From Isoetes taiwanensis (taxonomy: Eukaryota; Streptophyta; Lycopodiopsida; Isoetales; Isoetaceae): a DNA stretch of 64,000 nucleotides. Location: positions 11,028,740 to 11,092,739 of the forward strand of contig JAJEKV010000008.1 in the NCBI GenBank assembly GCA_021234155.1, given 5' to 3'. Below the pieces are notes generated by a model. The model was given only the letters and a program-made list of their open reading frames with translations. It ran no database searches and was not told the origin of the DNA. How positions within the stretch are numbered: position 1 is the stretch's first letter; each line of letters starts with the position of its first letter. The position numbers and the translations under genes were made by a program. Shown here in pieces: positions 8,772-45,735 of this stretch.

Positions 8772-9896
8772 TTAGTCACTATCTGTTGTGTTGGTGTCTG
8801 GAACAGCATCTGTGGTATGATTGTCACTTTCTGTTGTATGAAATTGTTTGAGGCGAAAGCCATTAACCAGTGTAGGTAATGGAGTTCCATCTAATTCAGC
8901 CAGTTTGAAAACGCTGGGTTGCACCACGTGAACAATTTGATAAGGGTCAAGCCAGCGAAATTTTAACTTGCCCCGAAAATTTTTGTAACGAGAATCATAA
9001 AGAAGAACCAAATCACCTTCTTTGAATGTTTTTGTCTTAAATCTTTTGTCATGCAATGATTTCTGCAACCGTTGTCCATGAAGAACACGAACATAAGCAT
9101 CACGCCTAAGTTCATCCAACTGTTCCAATTGATAAACCCTTTCTTTGAGTGCAAAGAAGCGGATTATGGGTCAGAGAGGTTGAAAACGGAGAGTTGGAAG
9201 AATGTACTCAAAAGGCATGAGAGCTTCTTGACCATAAACCAATTTGAAAGGAGTGTGACCAGTAGCTATTTTGAAACAAGTATTGTAAGCCCAAAGAACA
9301 GTAGGAAGTTTGTTTTGCCAGTCAGTGCGAGAAGCGTCACAAATTTTCTTGAGAATTGTGATTAGAGTTTTGTTGGTGCTTTCAGCCAAACCGTTCCCTT
9401 GAGGATAGTAAGGTGTGCTCTTGTGATGATGTATCAGTAGATAATCCGTCAGTTCCTTGATGGTATGATTGATAAAATGGACACCGCGATCACTGACCAG
9501 CTCCGTGGGGCAGCCAAAACGCGTGATGATTTGCTGATAGATGACCTTGGCGGTGCTTGCCGCAGTATTGTCTGGAAGTGCGCAAGCTTCCGCCCATTTG
9601 GTAGCATAGTCAGTGAGAACCAGAATGTAGCGGGCACGGGTGTGCCGCGCAGGCGGATCAATGGGTCCCACAAAATCCATCCCCCATTTGCTGAAGGGAA
9701 GGGGCGTGGCGACCGGCGTCAATGGAAGAGCGTCACGGGCCGTGGGCTTTCCCACACGCTGACAAGCATCACACGTGCGGGCGTGGGCGTGAGCGTCTTT
9801 GAAAAGCGTGGGCCAAAAATAACCAGCCAGAAGGATTTTGCGTGCCGTGGTGTCACCATGAAAATGACCACCACCGAGCCCTTCATGGGCTTCTCG
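8772..9896 (-). pseudogene. Gypsy integrase, cut off from the rest of pol
   Basis: Reading begins right at the insertion point with REAHEGLGGGHFHGDTTARK, the HHCC zinc domain (HEG...H, then CDACQR). The catalytic core shows the three acidic residues in WGMDFVGPID, ELVSDRGVHF and GNGLAESTNKTL. After a frame break near 9150 the C-terminal part (8772-9128) gives KFKTKTFKEG-like and KLKFRWLDPYQIVHVV, the usual DNA-binding C-terminal domain; no chromodomain is seen. The first codons of the zinc domain remain joined to the RNase H side at 20193, so the integrase is physically separated from its polyprotein by the 10.3 kb insert. Confidence 0.9.
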
Positions 9897-9899
9897 TAC

Positions 9900-9925
9900 G
9901 GGTGAAAGCATGTTGTAGTGGAACA
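9900..9925 (+). repeat. Left terminal inverted repeat of the 10.3 kb element
   Basis: Perfect inverse of 20167-20192. Outer bases are GGGTGAAAGC; flanked outside by target copy GTAC at 9896-9899. Confidence 0.92.
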
Positions 9926-10235
9926 AAAACGTGCATTTTAGCACCACATTTTTGGGTGCTAAGTGTGGTGGGAACTACCGAATTTGTAGTGGGAGAGGGA
10001 GTTATTTTTTCAAAAATACACATGATTACTTATTCAAAATTTTGTCCTTTCAGTCTTATTCAGGCTTATTCAGCAACGTACACGATCATTTTCCCTCAAA
10101 AACTCTGATCACGCTCCCTTAATCCGGCAAGACCATTTCTGATTCTGAATTTTCATTTTCCCTCAAAACTCGATCACGCTCCCTTAATCCGGCAAGACCA
10201 TTTCGATTTCGGCAAGAAGAAGATCGATCACTTAA

Positions 10236-10591
10236 ATGGCTCTGATCATACCGGACTTGAATGCCACGGGATACACCTACAAGGAAATGTACAGGCAAGA
10301 AAAGCATTACGCCACACAAGAAGAAATCGAGTCTGTTTGGGGACCGAAAGTATTAGGAAAATCCACTTACAGGTGGGTTGCATTCTAGATACGGGGATGC
10401 CCATGATTCTCTGTTGTTTAGAATATTGTTTTGTTTCATCATGCAGGTTGAAGAATATGAGCAAGGAGAGGTATAATGAATATATGTGCCTTTACAAAAA
10501 AATCACAGGCAGGAAGTGTGCCTGGGGAGGCATGGCCTCCTGGACTATGGTCAATTATGCATTATTACCTTCACAAAAGGAAAAGAAATAA
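10236..10591 (+). CDS. Two-exon transposon gene, product unrecognised
   Basis: ATG at 10236 opens MALIIPDLNATGYTYKEMYR. A good donor at 10373 (ACAG|GTGGGT) and acceptor at 10446 (ATGCAG|GTTGAAG) remove 74 bp and keep the frame, giving 93 residues ending at a TAA at 10589-10591. Exon 2 reads LKNMSKERYNEYMCLYKKIT then GRKCAWGGMASW. No known domain. The frame that takes over after the stop (10592-10845) also looks coding, so this TAA may be a mutation, or a further splice may exist. It is the first gene inside the left end of the 10.3 kb element and has the position expected of an element-encoded protein. Confidence 0.5.
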
Positions 10592-10845
10592 ATTGGTTGA
10601 GTTTCTGGCAACAGTTAAGAGAAAAAGGGTCTGAAGCCTCTCCGTCCCAACGTAAGAGGAAGCATGCAATCATTTCAAATAGTGAGGAAGCAGAGCAACC
10701 TGCCACAGATGATGCTTCCTCTCTTGAAATGACTAGGCCACAATTCAAGCCTCCTCAAGCTGTACAGCCTGTAAGAAGAGTCTCGGGGAAAATCACGGAA
10801 AAAATAGGTACTTTTCAACCCTCTTCTTCTGGAACCACCATATGA
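10570..10845 (+). pseudogene. Continuation of the left transposon gene in another frame
   Basis: Overlapping the end of the previous gene, a frame reads KEINWLSFWQQLREKGSEAS, then a basic stretch SQRKRKHAIISNSEE that looks like a nuclear localisation signal, then a Pro/Gln-rich tail ending SSSGTTI at 10845. It has no start of its own. A frameshift or missed splice would join it to the 10236 gene. Function unknown. Confidence 0.4.
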
Positions 10846-11039
10846 TGCAATTTAATATTGAACCTGCATTATTTTCCGGCCAAGGTCTAGCAAGCTTGAA
10901 CAATCGTGTACACCACTTACTTCTTCATTTGGGTGTGTTGTAAGTTATGTGTAGGAAATTTGTCTTTGCTAGTTTCGAGTTGTGGTGGATAATTTCAGTT
11001 CCACGATGAGTATGTAGCTCCAAATGTGTTCTGGTGACG
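10846..11039. other. Short spacer
   Basis: No supported feature; AT-rich DNA before the GTGGTG array. Confidence 0.4.
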
Positions 11040-11575
11040 ATCATATGGTGCAGTTATATGTTAATAATGTAGTTTGTAGCATATGTAGTGTCACATATAG
11101 TACCAAACGTGGTACCTTATCTGAATAGTGAATTGGCTTCCATATGTTTCTATACTTAGTGTCATATGTGATGTTAGATATGGTGATACTTGTGAATGGT
11201 AGATTATGCGCCATATGTGGTGCCAACCGTTATGCGCTAAATATTGCACCACGCTATCCGCCACATATGGGGTGGTGGATGCCACGGATGTGGTGCCTTA
11301 CGTGCATTGTGGTGCCACATGTGGTGTCTAATATGGCACCACTATGGATCCACATTTTGCACCACATGTGGTGTCTTTTGACGCTATTTGTAGTGCGAAG
11401 CAATGGATTGCCATATGTGGTGCCTTGGGTGCATGGTGCCATATGTGGTGTGGCATGTGGCACCGGTTTGGTGCCACATGCCACACCACATGTGGTGAAT
11501 ATGACGCCATTTGTGGTGCAAAGTTTGTCATGATGGAATTTGTGGTGTGTAAAGTGGTGCTGTTGTGTCATGTGG
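11040..11575 (+). repeat. GTGGTGCCA-type degenerate repeat array
   Basis: More than a dozen imperfect copies of motifs such as ATATGTGGTGCC and CACATGTGGTG are packed into about 530 bp. Many copies are partly palindromic (CACATGTG). Open frames on both strands here are by-products of the repeat. The same core recurs at both ends of the element and in the arrays at 15250-16075 and 18740-19200. Confidence 0.75.
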
Positions 11576-11659
11576 TACTAACCTTGGATTACTTTCCGGA
11601 TGAATTCAACGGGACCTTTGGGAGAATGGATCAACTCTACAAGATCGGAAGTGATTCGG

Positions 11660-12360
11660 TGTAAGGCAAGGTTGCAAACTTGTGATCAAAGCCCCAGGTG
11701 CTACAAATGAAGGTTCAAACAACTTGAGTTCGCATCGCCAGAAGATGAATAAAGATTTAAAAAAATGGGAAGGAATGATTAAGGATAAACCAAGTCGCAA
11801 GGCGGTATTCGGGGCTATATGCCAAGATACAGAGGCCGAAATGAAGGAACTATTACCGTAACTTGAGCGGACAAAAATCAAGGAGCTTAATCTGGCATCA
11901 CCCGTGGAAGTGCATACAACAAAGATTGAAAGTCTTTTGGAACCAAGGTTAGAGAGGTTTCGTCTTGCAAGGACCCGTCTTCCTTTATTTGTCTTGGATC
12001 CACTACTTCCGGACCTTGATAAAGGTGAAGATTATGGTAGTGGGCTGTCCATTACGTGGCAAGATCCTCCGGTGGATGGGGAAACCACTACCAACTTTGA
12101 TTCTTTGAATCAAATCACCAATACCATCTTCCATGTCCTTTCGGCCTCTTGAGGTACTTCATAACAAAATTCACGAAGTGCTTAGTATAATTGTATTCTC
12201 ATTGACAAATTTGCGTTCACTTTGCGGATTTGTAATCAACAATTGCATTGAGAATTGCTGTCATGAATTTTCTACAAACATGGGTACAAGCCTTAGGTGT
12301 GAGTAGGGAGGATCAAAAGCAACTTCAAGCCATTGAGGCACTTACGGTGAGCACTTATAG
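11660..12360 (+). pseudogene. Transposon-internal coding debris, unrecognised
   Basis: A frame from about 11666 reads QGCKLVIKAPGATNEGSNNL, continues through KKWEGMIKDKPSRKAVFGAI, hits a TAA at about 11860, and goes on in the same frame (PVEVHTTKIESLLEPRLERF, LDPLLPDLDKGEDYGSG) to a stop at 12152. Another frame then takes over (LEVLHNKIHEVLSIIVFSLT). A last stretch WVQALGVSREDQKQLQAIEA is followed by a GTGAGC donor at about 12348. It looks like one charged, helical protein damaged by a stop and frameshifts. No family recognised. Confidence 0.4.
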
Positions 12361-12414
12361 GTAGCTCGAAAAAGAGAGTAAGCCCGGCTTAGTCTCCTTC
12401 GTTTTTCATTTATT

Positions 12415-12624
12415 GTATCTAATTTGCCCCTAGGATGACATCGCTCACTCGGTGGGCTTAATTAGATACCTCAAGCAGAAACTTCGAAAAGGGAGTAAGC
12501 CCGACATAAAACAAGATCCTGGCTGGCTTAGTCTCTTTTTGCTTCTCTGTTTTGGTATCTAAAGTGCCCCTCAGGATGAGATCGCCGCTCATTTTAGGGG
12601 ACACTTTAGATATATAAAAACAGA
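12415..12624 (+). other. Two related stem-loops with compensatory stem changes
   Basis: Hairpin 1 (12415-12469) pairs GTATCTAATT with AATTAGATAC plus GCCC with GGGC. Hairpin 2 (12556-12612) pairs TATCTAAAGTG with CACTTTAGATA plus CCCCT with AGGGG, and an outer TCTGTTTT (12546-12553) pairs with AAAACAGA (12617-12624). Both loops contain GGATGASATCGC. The two units are about 140 bp apart and share flanking GAGAGTAAGCCCG and GGCTTAGTCTC. Confidence 0.5.
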
Positions 12625-12629
12625 ACATC

Positions 12630-13260
12630 GTAAAGAGAGTAAAAAGTCCGGAACTTAGTTAAAAAACCAAAGCATAGTTACAATCAATTGTGATTCAATT
12701 CCAGGTTTTGCGAGCATGGTGCCGTTTACTAATTCAGGTCTAATCTGTTTCATCTTGGTGGCAATGACTATGTGAGTCCATCTAGCACACCAAAAGGGAA
12801 TTATTTTCTACCCTCAAAGGTAACCAAGTCTTGTTTGATGCAATTGGGATATGTAGCTTACTTCTTCATCCCTACTTTGTAGATATAGATGTACAATGTG
12901 GTGGTTAGGGGGGGACAAGACACTCCCACCCCTTGAAAGCATTAGACTGAGATAGAAACTCGAGCAAATCGGAAGATGCATCAAAGTTACGTGAAGTCGG
13001 ACAAATCGGTAGATGTCAACAAATCAAGAGGGTGCATCAAGTCAAGCTCCGAGAGGGTGCTCCAACCGGACAAGAATCTGCCGGATCAACGGATGCATTA
13101 AGTCATGCTCCACACCAATCGCCAAATCGCCGGATGCATCAGGTTATGATCTGAACAAATCGTTTTCGTGAATGTAAGTCACAAGGTAACTTCCAACCTT
13201 TTGTGCCTGTCTTCTTTTTAATTTGACCCATATAGTTACCGAATCATTAAATTTTTGCAG
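12630..13260. other. Transposon-internal non-coding or intron DNA
   Basis: No convincing exon. Short phrases such as AAATCGS-GATGCATCA are repeated several times at 12960-13140. The stretch ends in a good 3' splice site (TTTTTGCAG at 13252-13260). Confidence 0.4.
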
Positions 13261-14085
13261 GCTGGAAGTGTCTCGGAGAAAAAGCAAGAGCAGAATTCCA
13301 AGCAAAAGACACCTCCAAGACATTACGAGGCGAAGTTTCCATCCCCGCATGCGAATAGATGCCGGGCGAAGTTTCGATACCGCACCAAGAAATTTGAAAG
13401 CGAAGTTTCCAGCCCCGCACCAACTCGTCCATGCGAGAAGACTACAAGGTTAAGCCCAATCACGCTTGTTTTTTACTACAATGGAGTTCGGGTAGAAGCT
13501 ATGACAAGAGTGAGTCCATACCCACTGCCAAAGAAGATGATGTTAAGTTGATCACACTTACGCGGAACCAAGTGGGTAGTAACTAGACCAGGCTGGGCCG
13601 AGTTCATAGATTGGTGCAGTCAGAATTTTCATATAGCACTTTGGTCCAGCCTGCAGGCTCAAAACTTGAGAGTCATAGTTAAGGGAGCATTGATGAAACA
13701 CAAGGACAAATTCAAGTTCATATGGAGTCAGGATCACTGTACCAACACAAATTTATTTAACAGTAAAAAGCCAATTTTTTTGAAGCACCTGAAAAAGGTC
13801 TACGACGAATTTCCAGGTTTCACAAAAGAGAACGTGCTTCTCATTGATGACAGCAGATACAAAGGGTACCTCAATGCGCCAAACACCATGATCTGTCCAA
13901 ACAGCTGGAGCCCTGACAGAGTAGATGGCAATTTCCTCATGAATGATCTAAAGGTTTGGCTTCAGGGGTTGCTGAAGGCAGGGAATGTGCAAAGTTATGT
14001 CGAAAGCAACAAAATGCTGAATATGTTTGACACTGAGAGTCAAATTTGTATTAATATGATGAAAAAACATAGAACTAAAGCCTAG
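13261..14085 (+). CDS. FCP1/SCP1-like HAD phosphatase domain protein
   Basis: An exon opening after the acceptor TTTTTGCAG at 13260 stays in one frame to TAG 14085, broken only by a single TGA at 13549. The domain order matches CTD-type (FCP1/SCP1, NLI-interacting) HAD phosphatases: motif I region LVFYYNGV (13465-13488), VTRPGWAEFIDWC, motif II ALWSSLQ, FIWSQDHCTNT, and motif III LLIDDSRYKGYL. Family members use an aspartate nucleophile in motif I (D-x-D or D-x-N); here that position reads Tyr, so it would be inactive as read. The N-terminal 60 residues are basic and repeat a KFPSP or EVSSPA-like phrase. It lies directly upstream of the Ulp1-like gene in the same orientation and probably belongs to the transposon rather than being a host gene. 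Confidence 0.65.
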
Positions 14086-14246
14086 AAATAGTATTATTGT
14101 GTATATGATGTAACCTCTCTTGACTTTTTAATATAAACAAAGTTTTACTTCAATTGTTCATTTCTTGGCTATTTCAATGTTCCTCAAGGTTTTCAATGAT
14201 CTTCCATTTGCTGAATGTAAACTTACACCACCAGCACGAGGACTGC

Positions 14247-15079
14247 AGTGTTAAGAGCGCACATCCGACCAGAACACTTGCCACTTGAAGTGTTTAAAGG
14301 ACTGCAGGAGCCTCTTGTGCTTGATCAAGAGGCAATCAGAATATTGGAGAAAAGTAGGGATTGGTTCAGTGACAGGATAGTCCATTTCTTCATGAGGTTA
14401 GTAATTTAATATAAACAACTCAGATTTGAAGTCTTCTGTTGTTTCTTAAATCATCTTGTTTTACCAGACCTTGGACTTTGGCAGGTGTATGCACCAATTC
14501 TGCATCAAGCATGACATGGAACAGAGGTTCCATTTCATGGATCCGCTCATTTACACATTACTGTCGAACGAGCTTGCTTCAAAGGACAAACTGTTGCACC
14601 CTCAACTTGCAATTTCGGAATGTACCATTCTGCCAGCATGTTATCAGCAGCCAGTTAAATATCAGCCAGGTGTGTACCATTTTGACAGCCTAGAAATGTA
14701 CAAGGGCTCCGAGCCTGTCATGAGTTTTGTTGAGGATGCAAACACAAAATTCCCAAGCACCATAAAGCTGCGCCACAAGAAAATTACAAGTTCCCCCACT
14801 CAGTCTGATTGCTGGTCGTGTGGTCCTGCTATATGTGTCTTCGTAAAGAAAGTTGTGGCTGCAGTAATGCGAGACTTGGACATACTATCCCAATGCAAGG
14901 TGAGTTCGTAAATTTGAAGGTATTACTCATCCAATGTGAGGCCTGATATGTTTGTTGCAGGTGTACCAATTTCTAGTTGCGGTTTGTTGGACACCTTGAG
15001 AATGATGATTGATGTTGTGAAGCACAGTTGCTGTAGTAATGAAGCTGAGGTTGACAGATCAATAGATCTTTACTTGTAA
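14247..15079 (+). CDS. Ulp1-type (C48) cysteine protease domain
   Basis: Exon 1 (about 14247-14396, AVLRAHIRPEHLPLEVFKGL) joins exon 2 at 14485 by a phase-2 splice (ATGAG|GTTAG ... TTTGGCAG|GTGTATG). Exon 2 carries the C48 signature: a His in LLHPQLAIS, Asp in YHFDSL, and Gln plus Cys in TQSDCWSCGPAICVF. These match the His-Asp-Gln-Cys set of SUMO proteases. A third exon (about 14961-15079) is possible but its frame does not join cleanly (SSCGLLDTLRMMIDVVKH). Ulp1-like domains are carried by several plant DNA transposons (some MULEs and CACTA elements), so an element-borne role is likely. Substrate unknown. Confidence 0.62.
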
Positions 15080-15249
15080 TCACATGTTTGTATTATTGTA
15101 ACCAAAGAGGTTATTCTTGTAACCTATTCTTTCATTGACACTCTAATGTACATTGTTGTATACTATTGTATACAATAGACTTTTTTCGTCTGACGGAGCA
15201 ACACTCGGGTGGAGTTCAAATCTCCGGAAGAAATTGATGTATTCAAAGA

Positions 15250-16075
15250 TTCATGACAATGTGGTGTTACATGTCGTGATGTATGTGGTGATGCAAATGG
15301 TGCATGTGCTGAATCATGTGGTGCATTTGGTGAACCATGTGGTGAATCATGTGGTGAATCGTAGGTGGCATGTTGGAGCTTACGTGGCATGTTTGACTTT
15401 CATTGACCAACATGTTTGGTGATGCAAATGGTGCATGTGGTGAATCATGAGGTGCATTTGGTGAATCATGTGGTGAATCATGTGGTGCATCGTAGGTGGC
15501 ATGTTGGAGCTTTACGTGGCATGTTTGAGCCACCTTGGCATGTTGGAGCCTAGGTGGCATATTTGAGCCACCTTGGCATGCTTGAGCCTTTACATGACCT
15601 TTGTTACATGTTTGACTTTCATTGACCAACATGTTTGGTGATGCAAATGGTGCATGTGGTGAATCATGAGGTGCATTTGGTGAATCATGTGGTGCATCGT
15701 AGGTGGCATGTTGGAGCTTACGTGGCATGTTTGAGCCACCTTGGCATGTTGGAGCCTAGGTGGCATATTTGAGCCACCTTGGCATGCTTGAGCCTTTACA
15801 TGACCTTTGTTACATGTTTGACTTTCATTGACCAACATGTTTGGTGATGCAAATGGTGCATGTGGTGAATCATGAGGTGCATTTGGTGAATCATGTGGTG
15901 AATCATGTGGTGCATCGTAGGTGGCATGTTGGAGCTTACGTGGCATGTTTGAGCCACCTTGGCATGTTGGAGCCTAGGTGGCATATTTGAGCCACCTTGG
16001 CATGCTTGAGCCTTTACATGACCTTGGTGAATCATGTGGTGCATCGTAGGTGGCATGTTGGAGCTATTCATGAAT
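15250..16075 (+). repeat. Higher-order GTGGTG/GGTGGCATGTT satellite
   Basis: The landmark CGTAGGTGGCATGTTGGAGC occurs at 15360, 15491, 15698, 15916 and 16045, with full units of about 207 and 218 bp and truncated units at both edges. Inside each unit, GTGAATCATGTG and GAGCCACCTTGGCATG are themselves repeated. Minus-strand His/Met-rich frames here are artefacts of the repeat. Confidence 0.85.
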
Positions 16076-16297
16076 GGCCAATTCAGGATAGATATATATA
16101 TATATTTTTTTTTAATGTTTTTTAGAAAATAAAATAATGGTCCTTTCGAGGTTATTATTAGTTGCCTACTAAATCTTTAGGAATAAAGATGCTAATGGTA
16201 CAAAATCCTAAAATCGTAGCCTACGAAATTAATTTCACGCCAGCCTTTATAGGCTATGGTCGTGAAGGAGAAGCATCGTCCAATTCCTTCCAACAGA

Positions 16298-16830
16298 ATG
16301 TCGAAGCGCTGCCGCTGCCGCTCTCCCTCCAGCTCTGCCTCTCCCTCTCCCTCTCGCTCTCCCTCCCCTAAGCGCCGGAAACTGCTTTCAATTCCTTTGG
16401 CACAGGTGATGGCCAGTTATGAAATAGGATCTTGGCCAAATTACCATTTGCTGGAGCCCGAACCTGAGAGCCCAGTACCCGAGAGCCCTGAGCCTGAGAG
16501 CTCTGAGTCTCATTCCACCTCTTCTGAAAGCTCTGAAGATCTTTTTGGACTTTTAAGAGGTGGAATCCTCCTCTAATTTCGATTCCTCTGATGAAGCTTC
16601 TTCTGATGATCAATTTGATTCCCAAGATTCTGATAACGAATCGAGCGAAGACCAGACCGAAGAAGAAGAAGAAGAAGAAGAAGAAGAAGAAGAAGAGGTA
16701 GAAGATGAAGAAGAACATGAAGTTTTTTTTGAACTCCAAAATTTTCTACAGAGTAAGTAGCATGCATGCATTAAATTTTTGCTTTCTTTTATGTATTCTA
16801 AACTAATTTTCTTCACTTTTTCTTATAGAT
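16298..16830 (+). CDS. Ser/Arg-rich then acidic transposon protein
   Basis: ATG 16298 opens MSKRCRCRSPSSSASPSPSR and continues to SPKRRKLLSIPLAQ, a basic Ser/Pro/Arg part with a likely nuclear localisation signal, then Glu/Pro/Ser repeats ending at 16576. The next 60 codons in another frame (MESSSNFDSSDEASSDDQFD) are acidic and include a run of about 14 Glu encoded by a GAA microsatellite at 16659-16697. A donor (GAGTAAGT at 16752) and acceptor (TTATAG at 16828) suggest a further exon. A frameshift near 16560 separates the two halves. No family recognised; low complexity limits any functional call. Confidence 0.4.
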
Positions 16831-16849
16831 GAAGCTTGAAGTCCCGGCT

Positions 16850-17340
16850 GTGCCACCTTTTTTTTTTCTTTTGATCAAGTTAGTCTACAGGCCTTTTGTG
16901 CCTTTGTATTTTTTTTGAAAAACAGATGGTATATAGGCCTTAGTGCCTTCATTTGATCTCACCCCCTTGTGAACTCACCCCTTGTGATACAGGCCTTAGT
17001 GCCTCTTTGTAATATATGATGGCCTTAGTGCCTTTTTGAATATATAATGGCCTTGTGCCTTTTTGAACCTTGTGTAAATTTCTAATTCTGAAGTATTCTG
17101 GTATCTTCTCGTTTTAACATATGATGGCCTTGTGCCGACCGTAATCCGTGCCTTGTGCCTTTTGTTTAATCGAGAAAATAGTTTATAATGGCTTTGTGTC
17201 TTGTGTAAATGTGTGCCTTGTGTAAATTTCTAATTCTGTTTTACCACAGGCCCTGTTTCTAAAAAGCAGATACCACAGGCCTTAGTGCCTTTCTTTGATC
17301 TCACCCATATGTCTAACAGGCCTTGTGCAAGTTTAATTCA
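16850..17340 (+). repeat. GGCCTTAGTGCCTTT minisatellite
   Basis: About ten imperfect copies of GGCCTTAGTGCCTTT, spaced 25-70 bp, separated by AT-rich filler and twice by TTTGATCTCACCC. Downstream of the acidic ORF, so possibly in its 3' untranslated region. Confidence 0.65.
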
Positions 17341-17479
17341 GTTTAATTCAGTTTAATCCGGTTATACCTTGGAATTCATTCAACATTCAAGTACAAATTT
17401 ACAGAAGCTGAAGCATAAAAATGAGAATGCAAAAGCGAAACTTCTTTATATTCATAAAAGTTTCTATCAATTACCTTTT

Positions 17480-17720
17480 ACACAATTGCCCGAAAGAAGT
17501 GGATTTTCCTAATACTTTCATATCAATTCGGGGACCTAATTTGGGATCCATATATTTTGTCACCAAAATCAGTCAAGATACTATCAGAATTGAGAGCCAT
17601 TCCATTTTCTCGACCGGGTCAAAAATGGTCAATGCCCCCGGCCGATTATGGTGAAATCTGTGGTGAAAGCCGTGGTGAAAACTGTGGTGAAGGTGTGGTG
17701 ATGCAAACGTTGTTTTTATA
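17480..17720 (+). pseudogene. Exon-like fragment, unrecognised
   Basis: One frame is open from the left through GDLIWDPYILSPKSVKILSE, then RPGQKWSMPPADYGEI and a short Gly-Glu repeat (CGESRGENCGEG). It has no start and no clear splice sites. It lies between the two converging gene sets of the 10.3 kb element. No known domain. Confidence 0.3.
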
Positions 17721-17940
17721 TTTCAAAGGGAGAAAAATACATATGGAAATCTACCATACCCGGTAGAATAGTTCATACTTCTTATGAAATGAAGTATGCG
17801 AGAAAAATCGAGGGAAAACTATAACCCCGAGCTTCTAGTATTATCAAAATGCATTAGAGATGACATACGATTATCGGGCCTCAATCGGATCACGCATTGT
17901 GAGATCAGAACTTCTTCTTCCAAATGCGTTCAAGACTTCA

Positions 17941-19952
17941 TCAAGTGTTTTCTTTGAATAGTTGGTGTAATCCAAGAACACTAAAACATGAGCTTCTCGT
18001 TTTACGCTCCCACTTATGATACAGATTCATAAAGTATTGTCTCAGGTTGTTGTGTCTCCATGCATCTGGCCTGTCGAGCACTTTTTTAATGGCTGAAGCA
18101 TGGATCATTTCCTGCTTTAGTTGGATGAACATATCCGCTTCCTCAAGCCTGGGGAGAGCTGAGAACTCATCCTCAAAAACATACACCACCCCGGAACCCC
18201 CTTTTACCGCATCTAGCTGTTAAGTCTCCCCGCGCATCGTGTAAACAACATCATCGTGTAAAACAACATCTACTACAAAGAAAGGCAACCGCCTATCACT
18301 GCCTTGGCTTCTAATTCTTTAAGCCCATCAGGAATTAACCTATGTTTTAAGCCTAGAATACCTCGGAATTCATGGGTCCTCCGCTCCTCTAATATCCGCC
18401 TCTGCTCCTGGTTTATTTGCTCCAGTATAGGTCCTACCAGATGCGACTGCATTTGAACTGGTGAAATTGTTTGTGCTCGTGTTCTCCTTCTGTTTTCTTC
18501 CGCCATAGCTGGATTGTGATAAGCCAATGTCTGCATGCAAAACTAGATTTATGGTTTTCCCCCAATGCTTCCTGCACAGCCAGCTTTTGAATGATTGACC
18601 TTGCATTTGATGTGTGATTTCCAATGATCCTCTGTCCCATTCTGGCCCATCCTTAATGTAATTTTTTCGTGTGTCACTTTCACTCGGTCAATTAAACAAT
18701 TGAGATTTCTATTAAACATAGCATATATTATGCAGACATTCATCTTACACCCGTTATTCACCACACTAGGCACCACATAGAATATATTACAAAGATTTAT
18801 TTTACACCATATTTTTAACCACACTAGGCACCACACTAGGCACCACACTAGACACCACACCATGTTATTCACGACACTAGGGACCACATAGCATATATTA
18901 CAAAGATTTATTTTACACCATGTTATTCACCACACTAGGCACCACAAAGTTTATATTTAGAGCATTTATTTTACACCATATTTTTTACCACACTAGGCAC
19001 CACATAGCATATATTACAAAGATGTATTTTACACCATGTTATTCACCACACTAGGCACCACAAAGCATATATTGACAAACATTTATTTCACACCACGTGC
19101 CTCACCACACTAGGCAAAGACATATCATATATCACAAAGATTAATAGGCACCACACACCACAAGCAATCACTAACCACAAAGAACCACATATCACAAGCA
19201 ATCACTAACCACATACCACATTAACAATAAAAAATGTGGTGAAGATGAAGAAATGAAATAACACGTGATTCTTCCGGATAGTGAGTGGCATGATCCTCTC
19301 TTACATTTCGTTCCAATCTTCTGAACTTAACATCCTTTGCATTTGAGAGACCCTCTTGTTTTCGGTCCAAAATTCTTTGCACAAGTTCTATGACTCGCTC
19401 TTCTAACTCTTTTGTACAAAACCCATTTCCCCCCTTTACAATCTATCTCTTCCCTCTTCAATTTTGCTTTGGTAAGATTCCTAGGATGAACACCCAAAGA
19501 AGATACCAAAACCCAGAGCATCGGCGGGATTAGCACTTTCGGTATTAATGCTTCCTCTTATGGCCATAGCAAGGCAACTACTCTTGGCTGCTAAACTGTC
19601 ATTGCTGTTAGACTTCTTCACAATCTAGTAAAACCTCTTTCTGCAGATAATCTAGTAAAACCTCTTTCTTATCGCTGTTAGACAAGCCTTTAGTGGTGCT
19701 ATGAAATGAAGATAACAATTTTAATACCATCCGAGCCTTTGGTAGAGGCCGTTCAGTGGATCCTCCCTCTATTTGTTGCAATTTTTGCTAATTCTTCTTT
19801 AGCTTCCCTTTGTCTTTTCCTTTGGTGTCTTTTATGATCCCGTTCTTGTTCTGGAGTTCTCTTTCTCTTACCTGTGGCAGATTTGCTTCCAAATTAAATG
19901 ATTGAAGGTATGAACCGGATTGATCCATAACCGGATTAAGCGCCATAGCCAT
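17941..19952 (-). pseudogene. Multi-exon minus-strand transposon gene, unrecognised
   Basis: ATG 19952 opens MAMALNPVMDQSGSYLQSFN. A shifted frame follows at once with GKRKRTPEQERDHKRHQRKR, a strongly basic, bZIP-basic-region-like stretch, then PLPKARMVLKLLSSFHSTTK and a duplicated KEVLLD phrase. Around 19280-19450 another block reads KELEERVIELVQRILDRKQE. After a 59 bp tandem array, 18536-18273 gives SHLVGPILEQINQEQRRILE, and 18300-17941 gives RLPFFVVDVVLHDDVVYTMR, then VVYVFEDEFSALPRLEEADM and a stop at 17941. Frameshifts and one TAA interrupt it. The consistent strand and helical charged composition suggest one protein from the right end of the element; the basic block could bind DNA. No transposase motif is recognisable. 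Confidence 0.42.
18740..19110 (+). repeat. About 59 bp tandem array with CACCACACTAGGCACCACA
   Basis: Five to six imperfect units of CACCACACTAGGCACCACA followed by ATATATTACAAAGATTTATTTTACACCAT-like filler, with spacings close to 58-60 bp. The core is the inverse of the GTGGTG motif used in the left-hand arrays. Confidence 0.78.
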
Positions 19953-20166
19953 GTGCTTCAGGAAAGGCGCGGGTGGGTCGTGGGTTTAGAAATCGATTCG
20001 GTGGAGATTGGAATGGGACGGGTGGCGTAGGAATCGGGTTGTTGCAGTTCAGGAAATGATTGAATCCGGGCAGTACATCACTAGGCGCCAAACAAACATT
20101 TAAAATCGCACCACAAATTTGATATCTCCCACCACATTTTTAGGAGGACAGGGGGGACACCCAGGG

Positions 20167-20192
20167 TGTTCCACTACAACATGCTTTCACCC
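20167..20192 (-). repeat. Right terminal inverted repeat of the 10.3 kb element
   Basis: Perfect inverse of 9900-9925, followed by the second target copy GTAC at 20193-20196. The internal CACTA string is not at the outer end, so this is not a standard CACTA terminus. Confidence 0.92.
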
Positions 20193-22264
20193 GTACAATA
20201 TCTGGGACCTCATGAGGGAGAACACATCGTCGAAGGACGGTATCCTTACCCTTTTTGTAAAGATGGCCTGCAACCATGGTGTAGTCACGGACCTCGCGGA
20301 GAAATTGGTGTCGACGGGATTGTCGCTTGGCTTGAGAGAGCGTGGCGTCCTCTGGTGGAAGAGCGCCTGTGAGGAGATACTGCTGAAAGTCGTGGAACCA
20401 ATGTGGTGTTGCCGTGACCAGAAAGAGTTGAGCGTCAGGAAAGGCGTTTGAGACTCCAGTGGAGGGATCATCTGTGTGGATGCGTGAAAGATAATCCGGG
20501 ACAACATGAGATTTGCCTGCCTTATGAACAATTTCAAAAGGTGCAAATTCTTGCAGAAGGAGGACCCAACGAGCAATGCGGCCCGTGGGCGTGGATTTGT
20601 TGATCAAATAAAGGAGGGCTTGGTAGTCAACAAAAAATTTGATCTGACTGCCCAAAAGATAGTGACGGAAGCGTTGGACACAGAAAATTAAACCCAAGGC
20701 TTCACGCTCGGTGGCAGAGTAGTTGCACTCAGCAGAATTGAGTTTCTGGCTGGCGTATCTGTTTGGTTTGTCAGTGTGCGCATCATATTCTTGAGAAATA
20801 ACAGCTCCAATAGCAAACGCCGAGACATCTACATGGACGTGAAAGGGCTTGTCCCATTGAGGAGGAACAAGAAGGGGCCCGAGTAAGCAAGAGCTTCAAC
20901 TGTTGAAAAAGCGATCCGCCTGGGAATTCCAAGCCCAGGTGGATTCATCACCCGTGAGTTTATGAATGGGATCTGCAATGGCTGCAAGTCCAGGAATGAA
21001 GGTGGAGTAATAATTGACCTTACCCAGGAAAGAGCGTGTCTCCTTGATATTGGCTGGTGCGTGAGCCTTGAGCACTGGCCCGATTTTGGCGGGATCCGTG
21101 GTGATACCGCTTTATCGACAACGTGTCCTAAAGAACACTGAAGTGGACGCAAAAGGTGCATTTCTCGGGATTGAGACTAATGCTTGGGACTCATCACATT
21201 TTCGAAAAGACGAGTTCCAATTTATCTAAATGGTCAGCCATGGAACTGTAGGCAGAGAAGTCATCTTGAAAAATTTGTAAGAAGGGATTTTCCTTCATAA
21301 CATCATGAAAAACTGAGAGCATGATGCGTTGAAACGTGGATGGAGAGTTAGATAATCCAAAAGGAACCACCTTGTAGGCAAAAAGTGCCTGCAGGGGTGG
21401 TGAAAGTAGTCTTGAGTTGATCAGATTCTTTGATTGAGATCTGATTGTAGCCAGAAAAACCATCTATGAAGGAGTACATCTCATGTCCAGCAACCTCTTC
21501 CAGAACCTGGTCTGTGAAGGGAAGTGGAAAATGATCACGCTCCGTGGCCTGATTGAGTTTTCGGTAGTCCACGCAAACGCGGATCTTTCCATTGTGTTTG
21601 AGTGCAATGACGATGGGGCTCACCCATTCAGAATGTTTGACCTCATAGATCAAACCTGCAGCAAGGAGTTTGTCAATTTCCGCCTTGACGCGATCACGGT
21701 AATTGGGGTTGAGCCGCATCGCCGTTGCTAAACGGGACGTGCATCAGATTTGGTAGGAATGGTGAGTTCCCCCAAGGCTTTGTTGATCCCCCGAAGATCT
21801 CTGTAGCTCCAGGCGAAAATGTGTTTGAACTTTTTGAAGAGCGTGACGGCCCTGTTACGATAGGGTGTTGGAAGATTTGCAGCAATGCGGACAGGCTGAT
21901 TGTTGCCCACGTCCACAATCTCGACTTTAGGAGTTTGAATATGGGGGATAACTTCCGTGTCCTGGACAATATGAGCAGGAGGTTGAAGCATAACAGGATG
22001 CGTGGCACTCTGCGTGGTGAAAAAGAGAGGTTGCTGAGTTTCATCAAGCAGAGGTTGCTTCATGACAGCATGTACATCTACAGGAGCTGCAGGAGGGTTA
22101 GCATCTGAAAAGTGATCAACACGTTGGATTCGATTGCAAGGAGCCAGGTAAGGGTCAAGCAAAGCAGCCACAGCCTGGTCCTGATCAAGAGTCATTTCTC
22201 CCCAAGGATCAAAGCATATTGTGGTAGGATGACAGAGGCGACTCATGCAGTGGAGCCCGAACAT
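20193..22264 (-). pseudogene. Gypsy reverse transcriptase and RNase H
   Basis: Minus-strand pieces in order: FAWSYRDLRGINKALGEL (22264-21728), RT fingers and palm VCVDYRKLNQATERDHFPLP with FIDGFSGYNQI (21719 down), KVVPFGLSNSPSTFQRIM and the active-site box IFQDDFSAYS at about 21265, where most relatives have Tyr/Phe-x-Asp-Asp. RNase H follows (TEREALGLIFCVQRFRHYLL, DYQALLYLINKSTPTGRIAR) and ends with VLPHEVPDIVR exactly at the DNA-transposon junction. Frame changes near 21720, 21400, 21190 and 20700 show it is dead. Confidence 0.9.
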
Positions 22265-45413: not shown

Positions 45414-45735
45414 GGGTAAAAGCATGTTAGGGTGTCCCTTAAAAAGTATTATTTAGTGACTAAAAAGGTACCTAAAAAGGTAGCCAGGACTGGGTACTGG
45501 GTACCTGTATAATATCTCAATATAAGGTATGTTTTAGAACTTTTTATATATATATTGGTCTCCGATAGCATTATCTTTATCTTAACTTTGAATATTACCA
45601 CGTCCTTGACTTTTTTTTTGGATTTTTGTATTAGTTTTAATGAAAAGAAAAATGAGAAAGTACCCAGTTCTGAAGTACCTAGTGTATGTACTTTTGCAGG
45701 TTCCAAAAGTGGTACACCCTAACATGCTTTTACCC
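45414..45735. mobile_element. MITE sharing termini with the 10.3 kb element
   Basis: Inverted ends GGGTAAAAGCATGTTAGGGT (22 bp matching) are flanked by ATGT on both sides (45410-45413, 45736-45739), a 4 bp target duplication. The outer 15 bp GGGTRAAAGCATGTT are those of the 10.3 kb element at 9900-20192, whose target duplication is also 4 bp. It is 322 bp and has no coding capacity, so it is a good candidate for a non-autonomous relative. Confidence 0.8.

Follow-up and report, generated by a model that had tools for sequence, protein, structure and literature searches.

To which class of transposon does a 10,293-bp element in the genome of the quillwort Isoetes taiwanensis belong, and are the phosphatase-like and protease-like genes inside it part of the element? 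It occupies positions 9900-20192 of the window, the whole 64,000-nucleotide stretch of contig JAJEKV010000008.1 (assembly GCA_021234155.1) that was analysed. An initial annotation, made from the letters of the window, had proposed a DNA transposon of unassigned superfamily. Comparison with other copies in the genome indicates that it very probably belongs to a large family of plant cut-and-paste transposons with passenger genes, as a non-autonomous copy with an internal deletion. This numerous lycophyte family is Sola-like, its transposase is invisible to Pfam-based annotation and its passengers look selected.

Ends, target duplications and transposase

The element is bounded by perfect 26-bp inverted ends. 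The 26-mer occurs at two places in the whole window, both of them ends of the element (mean of 0 in 100 shuffles), and the palindromic GTAC found on both sides extends the inverted match from 26 to 30 bp. The element interrupts a minus-strand gypsy polyprotein frame between ...PHEVPDIVR and EAHEGLGGG...; when the frames were compared by eye, the reading was continuous across the flanks once a single GTAC was kept. Perfect ends, flanking GTAC and restoration of the gypsy junction upon excision had all been described in the initial annotation, and all three stand. Because GTAC is palindromic, the window copy alone cannot separate a 4-bp duplication from a duplicated TA next to longer ends.

The genome (1,658,258,908 bases in 1110 contigs) was searched for further copies, and 11 elements were fetched whole out of 18 candidate end pairs. 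With the window copy, these 12 long elements measure 8.7-15.9 kb and carry terminal inverted repeats (TIRs) of 24-26 bp, the match extending over 26 bp in 11 elements and over 24 bp in one. Each is flanked by a perfect 4-bp duplication, different in every case (GTAC, GTTG, TTCT, CAAC, GATT, TTAC, TGGT, GAAT, AGTG, CATC, ATGA and TTCA), and a thirteenth element (C46) shows AGAT on both flanks by eye. Thus, the duplicated target is 4 bp long without a fixed sequence, and GTAC is one instance and not the rule. A fixed GTAC target and a duplicated TA with longer ends would each suit the window copy taken by itself; the 11 other elements exclude both. Another duplication length in other copies, raised in the initial annotation as a possible objection, was seen in none of the 12.

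The family is abundant. Genome-wide, a 15-bp end core with at most one mismatch gave 2788+2814 matches (5,602), against 23+30 for the reversed pattern, and a 35-bp left-end pattern of the long type with at most three mismatches gave 194+180 matches (374), against 0 for the control. Short miniature inverted-repeat transposable elements (MITEs) have the ends of the long elements in common. Among 20 sampled end stretches, eight belonged to short elements of 269-321 bp. Six of the eight distinct short elements show a 4-bp duplication, one shows none and one lies within a GAA repeat. L001, L003, L005 and L006 duplicate L029, L031, L033 and L034, and each pair was counted once.

The initial annotation had recognised no transposase, which holds for the window copy but not for the family. 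By tblastn, a transposase core is present in 7 of the 12 elements (C33, C184, C30, C88, C151, C300 and C306) and absent from the window copy, C64, C67, C118 and C297. C88, C151, C300 and C306 carry an extra 3.3-4.3 kb at the site equal to window positions 18707-18716, and this segment encodes the core on the minus strand. C64, C67, C118 and C297 align unbroken to the window copy across this site; thus, the five coreless elements look like the descendants of one deleted form. The N-terminal exon of the transposase, retained in decayed form in the window copy, matches two Calypogeia proteins (2e-16 and 1e-13) whose single chain also includes the core. In full copies, which measure about 14 kb, the minus strand encodes, inwards from the right end, the transposase (N-terminal exon, then RNase H-like core) followed by ORF-R2; the plus strand encodes, inwards from the left end, ORF-L1, the NIF/HAD-phosphatase-like gene and the Ulp1-like gene. 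Strands and order in the window copy are those first proposed, with plus-strand genes on the left and minus-strand on the right; the splicing proposed with them is our reading of the frames.

The transposase has 94 homologues, the named ones coming from Taxus, Klebsormidium, Calypogeia and a beetle; none of the named ones is labelled Sola or transposase. Three Asp are conserved in 89/90, 89/92 and 76/80 rows of the homologue alignment. The predicted core is an integrase/transposase-like, RNase H-like fold model, for which retroviral integrases top the fold-comparison list. Judging from the alignment and this model, the transposase would be of the DDD type, with the three Asp in a predicted catalytic role. 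Pfam scans of the core frames and nine homologues returned no family, and no integrase (rve) family in particular; the homologues gave weak rows, some of them to helix-turn-helix families within the N-terminal half of P0086. NCBIfam likewise returned weak rows and no family for the transposase. Foldseek against BFVD gave one row at 7e-4 with an rmsd of 40 and otherwise weak RNase H-like rows. As a separate observation, P0069, a distant homologue of 925 amino acids, has a weak C-terminal match to an OTU-like cysteine protease (E 0.015, below cut-off). At L052, L053 and other transposase loci, many copies have frames interrupted by small indels.

A second transposase family (family B) is 54-61% identical to the first (family A). 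An ORF-R2 homologue was detected in the stretch L083 (5.7e-16, or 1.6e-35 with the C306 copy as query; 55-60% identity), between the N-terminal exon and the core of a family-B transposase and on the strand opposite to it. ORF-R2 may be a core accessory gene. A second 3-kb stretch beside a family-B transposase (L084) gave no match to ORF-R2, NIF or Ulp1. L083 (G000:C1066:2386500-2389500) also contains TGTGGTG, a motif described below, 21 times.

Passenger genes and TGTGGTG arrays

The NIF-like and Ulp1-like genes belong to the element. Indeed, 11 of the 12 elements match NIF over no less than 57% of the query (C33 over 20%), 10 match Ulp1 over no less than 91% (C33 and C184 lack it), and the two genes always lie to the left of the transposase exons on the opposite strand, so that their presence, claimed for the window copy by the initial annotation, extends to the family. 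ORF-L1 is at least 92% covered in 11 elements and 28% covered in C151.

The association of Ulp1 with the transposase was also counted among the matches listed. From 138 transposase rows, 123 were used (81 of family A and 42 of family B, assigned by identity and query range), and 15 fragments or unplaceable rows were excluded. The Ulp1 rows came from 165 matches, not all of them listed, after removal of the window copy and of any second piece belonging to a single copy. Ulp1 lies within 15 kb of 26 of the 81 family-A matches, always on the opposite strand, where 0.24 would be expected, and near one of the 42 family-B matches, on the same strand.

The NIF domain (PF03031) scored above cut-off, at 4.2e-13 and 7.3e-13, with profile positions covered from 30-36 on. 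Across 14 copies, the codon of the motif-I catalytic Asp is in line in one (C67), reads Tyr in four and is frame shifted in nine. The homologue search with NIF found one protein, P0096, which is 49% identical and retains the motif-I Asp (FDYNGVLGR); a sequence search of the PDB with NIF gave no match. Catalytic death of NIF across the family was considered and dropped, because P0096 keeps the Asp and because the assembly, polished and based on nanopore reads according to the excerpt of its publication (PMC8566536), may hold errors. Some of the frame breaks in repeats may indeed be assembly errors, and not all of them decay.

For Ulp1, the joined exons of copy L081 gave a marginal match to PF02902 (5.6e-4; 20.2 bits for a cut-off of 20.7), and the window frame by itself matched no Pfam family. 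Copies L079-L082 contain the Ulp1-like motifs HW, HFD, QSD and SCG, which we take to be the catalytic His, Asp, Gln and Cys motifs of C48 proteases; the His part is missing from the window copy. The Ulp1 exon is open in all four of these further copies, which were fetched as the top matches to the window and not as a random sample.

Constraint was estimated as pN/pS, the ratio of nonsynonymous to synonymous differences, relative to one reference copy and with shorter alignments excluded. The values were 0.43 for Ulp1 (13 copies), 0.59 for NIF (12 copies) and 0.53 for the transposase (35 copies). When the substitution positions were shuffled 200 times, the mean was 0.76 for Ulp1 (minimum 0.57), 0.82 for NIF (minimum 0.62) and 0.74 for the transposase (minimum 0.67), so that each observed value is lower than that of any shuffle. 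Read in the two other frames, Ulp1 gave 1.0 and 0.58, NIF 0.74 and 0.70, and the transposase 0.67 and 0.78. On these substitution patterns, NIF and Ulp1 look constrained about as much as the transposase, and selection seems to have kept them in the family.

Finally, the elements are rich in the motif TGTGGTG, which occurs 41-60 times per element, both strands summed, in all 12. The window element contains 49 occurrences, where Markov sequences had 1.8 on average and, among 300, never more than 7; the remaining 53.7 kb of the window contain 13. Minus-strand occurrences lie mostly in the right half in all 12 elements. Plus-strand occurrences are concentrated in the left half of the seven core-bearing elements but not of the five deleted ones, in which the central array falls beyond the midpoint.

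Classification and possible mechanism

CACTA (EnSpm) elements have CACTA-type termini and 2-3-bp duplications, and Tc1/mariner elements duplicate TA; the present ends (GGGTGAAAGC) and 4-bp duplication are not those of CACTA elements, and most of the 12 duplications are without a central TA. TTAA, the duplication of Kolobok and piggyBac elements (PMC9587614), is absent from all 12, and MULE duplications are 7-12 bp long (PMC10741241). It is hardly credible, then, that a MULE or CACTA transposase moves an element of its own family with unusual ends. MULEs are known to carry Ulp1-like passengers (PMC13317346), but all 12 elements have a 4-bp duplication, unlike that of MULE or CACTA as initially noted, the DDD transposase encoded between these ends is an unrelated one, and the Pfam scans showed no MULE or CACTA domain. 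A Ginger element would carry a Gypsy-type integrase protein; here the Pfam scans of the core frames and nine homologues gave no rve family, but retroviral integrases lead the fold comparison.

The Sola superfamily was reportedly introduced by Bao et al. in 2009. Its members are described as having a DDD transposase, a 4-bp duplication, ends of 11-1124 bp and a size of mostly 2-9 kb, with some above 15 kb, and as occurring in moss while being uncommon in flowering plants (PMC10741241); a Sola1 of Physcomitrella is on record (PMC9033089). The present family resembles this description in its 4-bp duplication (12/12), its three conserved Asp on an RNase H-like model, its TIR length and its large elements, and the moss occurrence of Sola is a further likeness. 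We therefore lean, by somewhat more than an even chance, towards Sola as the best name for the family, and write Sola-like because the likeness is one of described features. The initial annotation had spoken of an undescribed or poorly described plant family, to be refuted by a transposase of a named superfamily: poorly described remains apt, while the features fit a superfamily already described, and the refuting result is partly borne out by a transposase of the DDD type that is Sola-like by description. NIF and Ulp1 passengers and dense TGTGGTG arrays, present here, go unmentioned for Sola in the excerpts of both sources (PMC10741241, PMC9033089). Sola2-Fanzor1 chimeras of amoebozoa, as excerpted, also combine an extra gene, forms that have lost most of the transposase, and 4-bp duplications, but their passenger is Fanzor1 and their duplications are AT-rich, whereas G and C are common in ours (PMC3627910). 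Alternatively, the transposase may represent an undescribed eukaryotic DDD superfamily with the same cut-and-paste chemistry, its 4-bp stagger coinciding in length with that of Sola. This would agree with the lack of a Pfam or NCBIfam family and with 94 homologues of which the named ones are never called Sola or transposase; Pfam may, however, simply have no Sola entry, and the family agrees with the Sola description in the length of its duplication, the DDD triad, element size and occurrence among early plants. We regard such a superfamily as a tentative option, with roughly one chance in three.

The preferred mechanism for this Sola-like family is as follows. The transposase of full copies would bind the ends, cut, and join the element across a 4-bp stagger in the target DNA; deleted copies of the window type and short MITEs would be mobilised in trans via the shared ends, and ORF-R2 may assist transposition. 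NIF and Ulp1 would act for the element on host or element proteins, such as SUMO-linked or transcriptional silencing factors, and the TGTGGTG arrays would be putative binding sites recruiting an element protein. An anti-silencing role of NIF and Ulp1 is perhaps suggested by the parallel with VANC genes, whose products contain an Ulp1 domain and direct hypomethylation via short motifs in Vandal MULEs (PMC13317346). As excerpted there, Vandal and Kaonashi are likewise plant DNA transposons keeping an Ulp1-like domain, and an element-encoded protein recognises short motifs in the non-coding DNA of relatives; they differ in being MULEs without TIRs, with another transposase and duplication, and for the present family the anti-silencing effect is a proposal. 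If true, this would be a MULE-independent case of a plant transposon keeping an Ulp1-like protease beside dense short motifs, and the purpose of such proteases for transposons would become testable in an unrelated element.

NIF and Ulp1 could instead be inert cargo captured between the ends, with no role for the element. Plant transposons are well known to capture Ulp1 and other host genes (PMC13317346), neither gene is intact in the window copy, C33 and C184 lack Ulp1, and the gene lies near a single family-B match in 42 among those listed. Against this, NIF and Ulp1 recur in 10-11 of the 12 elements in the same order, their pN/pS values lie below all 200 shuffles and near that of the transposase, and the Ulp1 exon is open in 4/4 further copies; we consider inert cargo the less likely reading. 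Several results nevertheless weigh against a Sola-like family with selected passengers. The fit to Sola is one of description, and Foldseek with the transposase core gave no PDB match at E<=0.001, the best rows being NurA. The 26 of 81 family-A matches with Ulp1 nearby are a minority among those listed, and many transposase matches have none, partly because copies have decayed and not every match is listed. Most frames are broken in most copies. Moreover, the copies behind the pN/pS values are related, share one reference and are not independent, and the signal for NIF is weak, its value lying close to the shuffle minimum.

A bolder extension, which we hold to be improbable though worth stating, is that this Pfam-absent DDD family of streptophyte algae, liverworts, quillwort, yew and insects forms its own superfamily or a new Sola branch, and that one quillwort lineage took up a selected NIF-like and Ulp1-like module which, with its 41-60 TGTGGTG sites, would make up a VANC-like regulatory or anti-silencing system. 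A literature search found no paper joining NIF/HAD phosphatase and Ulp1 with transposons and, among the listings returned, no account of such elements in Isoetes.

Features of the window copy

Table 1. Features mapped on the element and on a short relative in the same window (window positions).
Feature	Positions	Strand	Basis
Left target site duplication, GTAC	9896..9899	.	comparison of flanks across elements
Left terminal inverted repeat, 26 bp	9900..9925	+	identical to right end
ORF-L1 start region; two frames, probably exons	10236..10585	+	no Pfam family
NIF (HAD phosphatase-like) gene, frame interrupted; longest unbroken frame 13552-14085	13372..14082	+	PF03031, 4.2e-13
Frame with probable first exon of Ulp1-like gene	14221..14409	+	splice site by eye; same frame in L079, L081, L082
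Ulp1-like protease exon; lacks 39 bp holding the expected catalytic His	14486..14896	+	
Central tandem array rich in TGTGGTG-like units	15298..16025	.	
ORF-R2, accessory gene (candidate); frames 17941-18219 and 18273-18542	17941..18542	-	
Site where longer copies hold 3.3-4.3 kb with transposase core; deleted in window copy	18707..18716	.	
58-bp tandem array rich in CACCACA (TGTGGTG on minus strand)	18716..19142	.	
Decayed transposase N-terminal exon	19224..19733	-	tblastn 1.8e-28 to exon upstream of L052 core
Right terminal inverted repeat, 26 bp	20167..20192	-	identical to left end
Right target site duplication, GTAC	20193..20196	.	comparison of flanks across elements
322-bp MITE; ends (GGGTAAAAGCATGTT) match those of the large element; 4-bp duplication ATGT	45414..45735	.	

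Between the Ulp1-like gene and ORF-R2, positions 16454-16760 hold an acidic, repeat-rich frame with tandem repeats of the GAA and GAGCCC types, possibly a further small gene.

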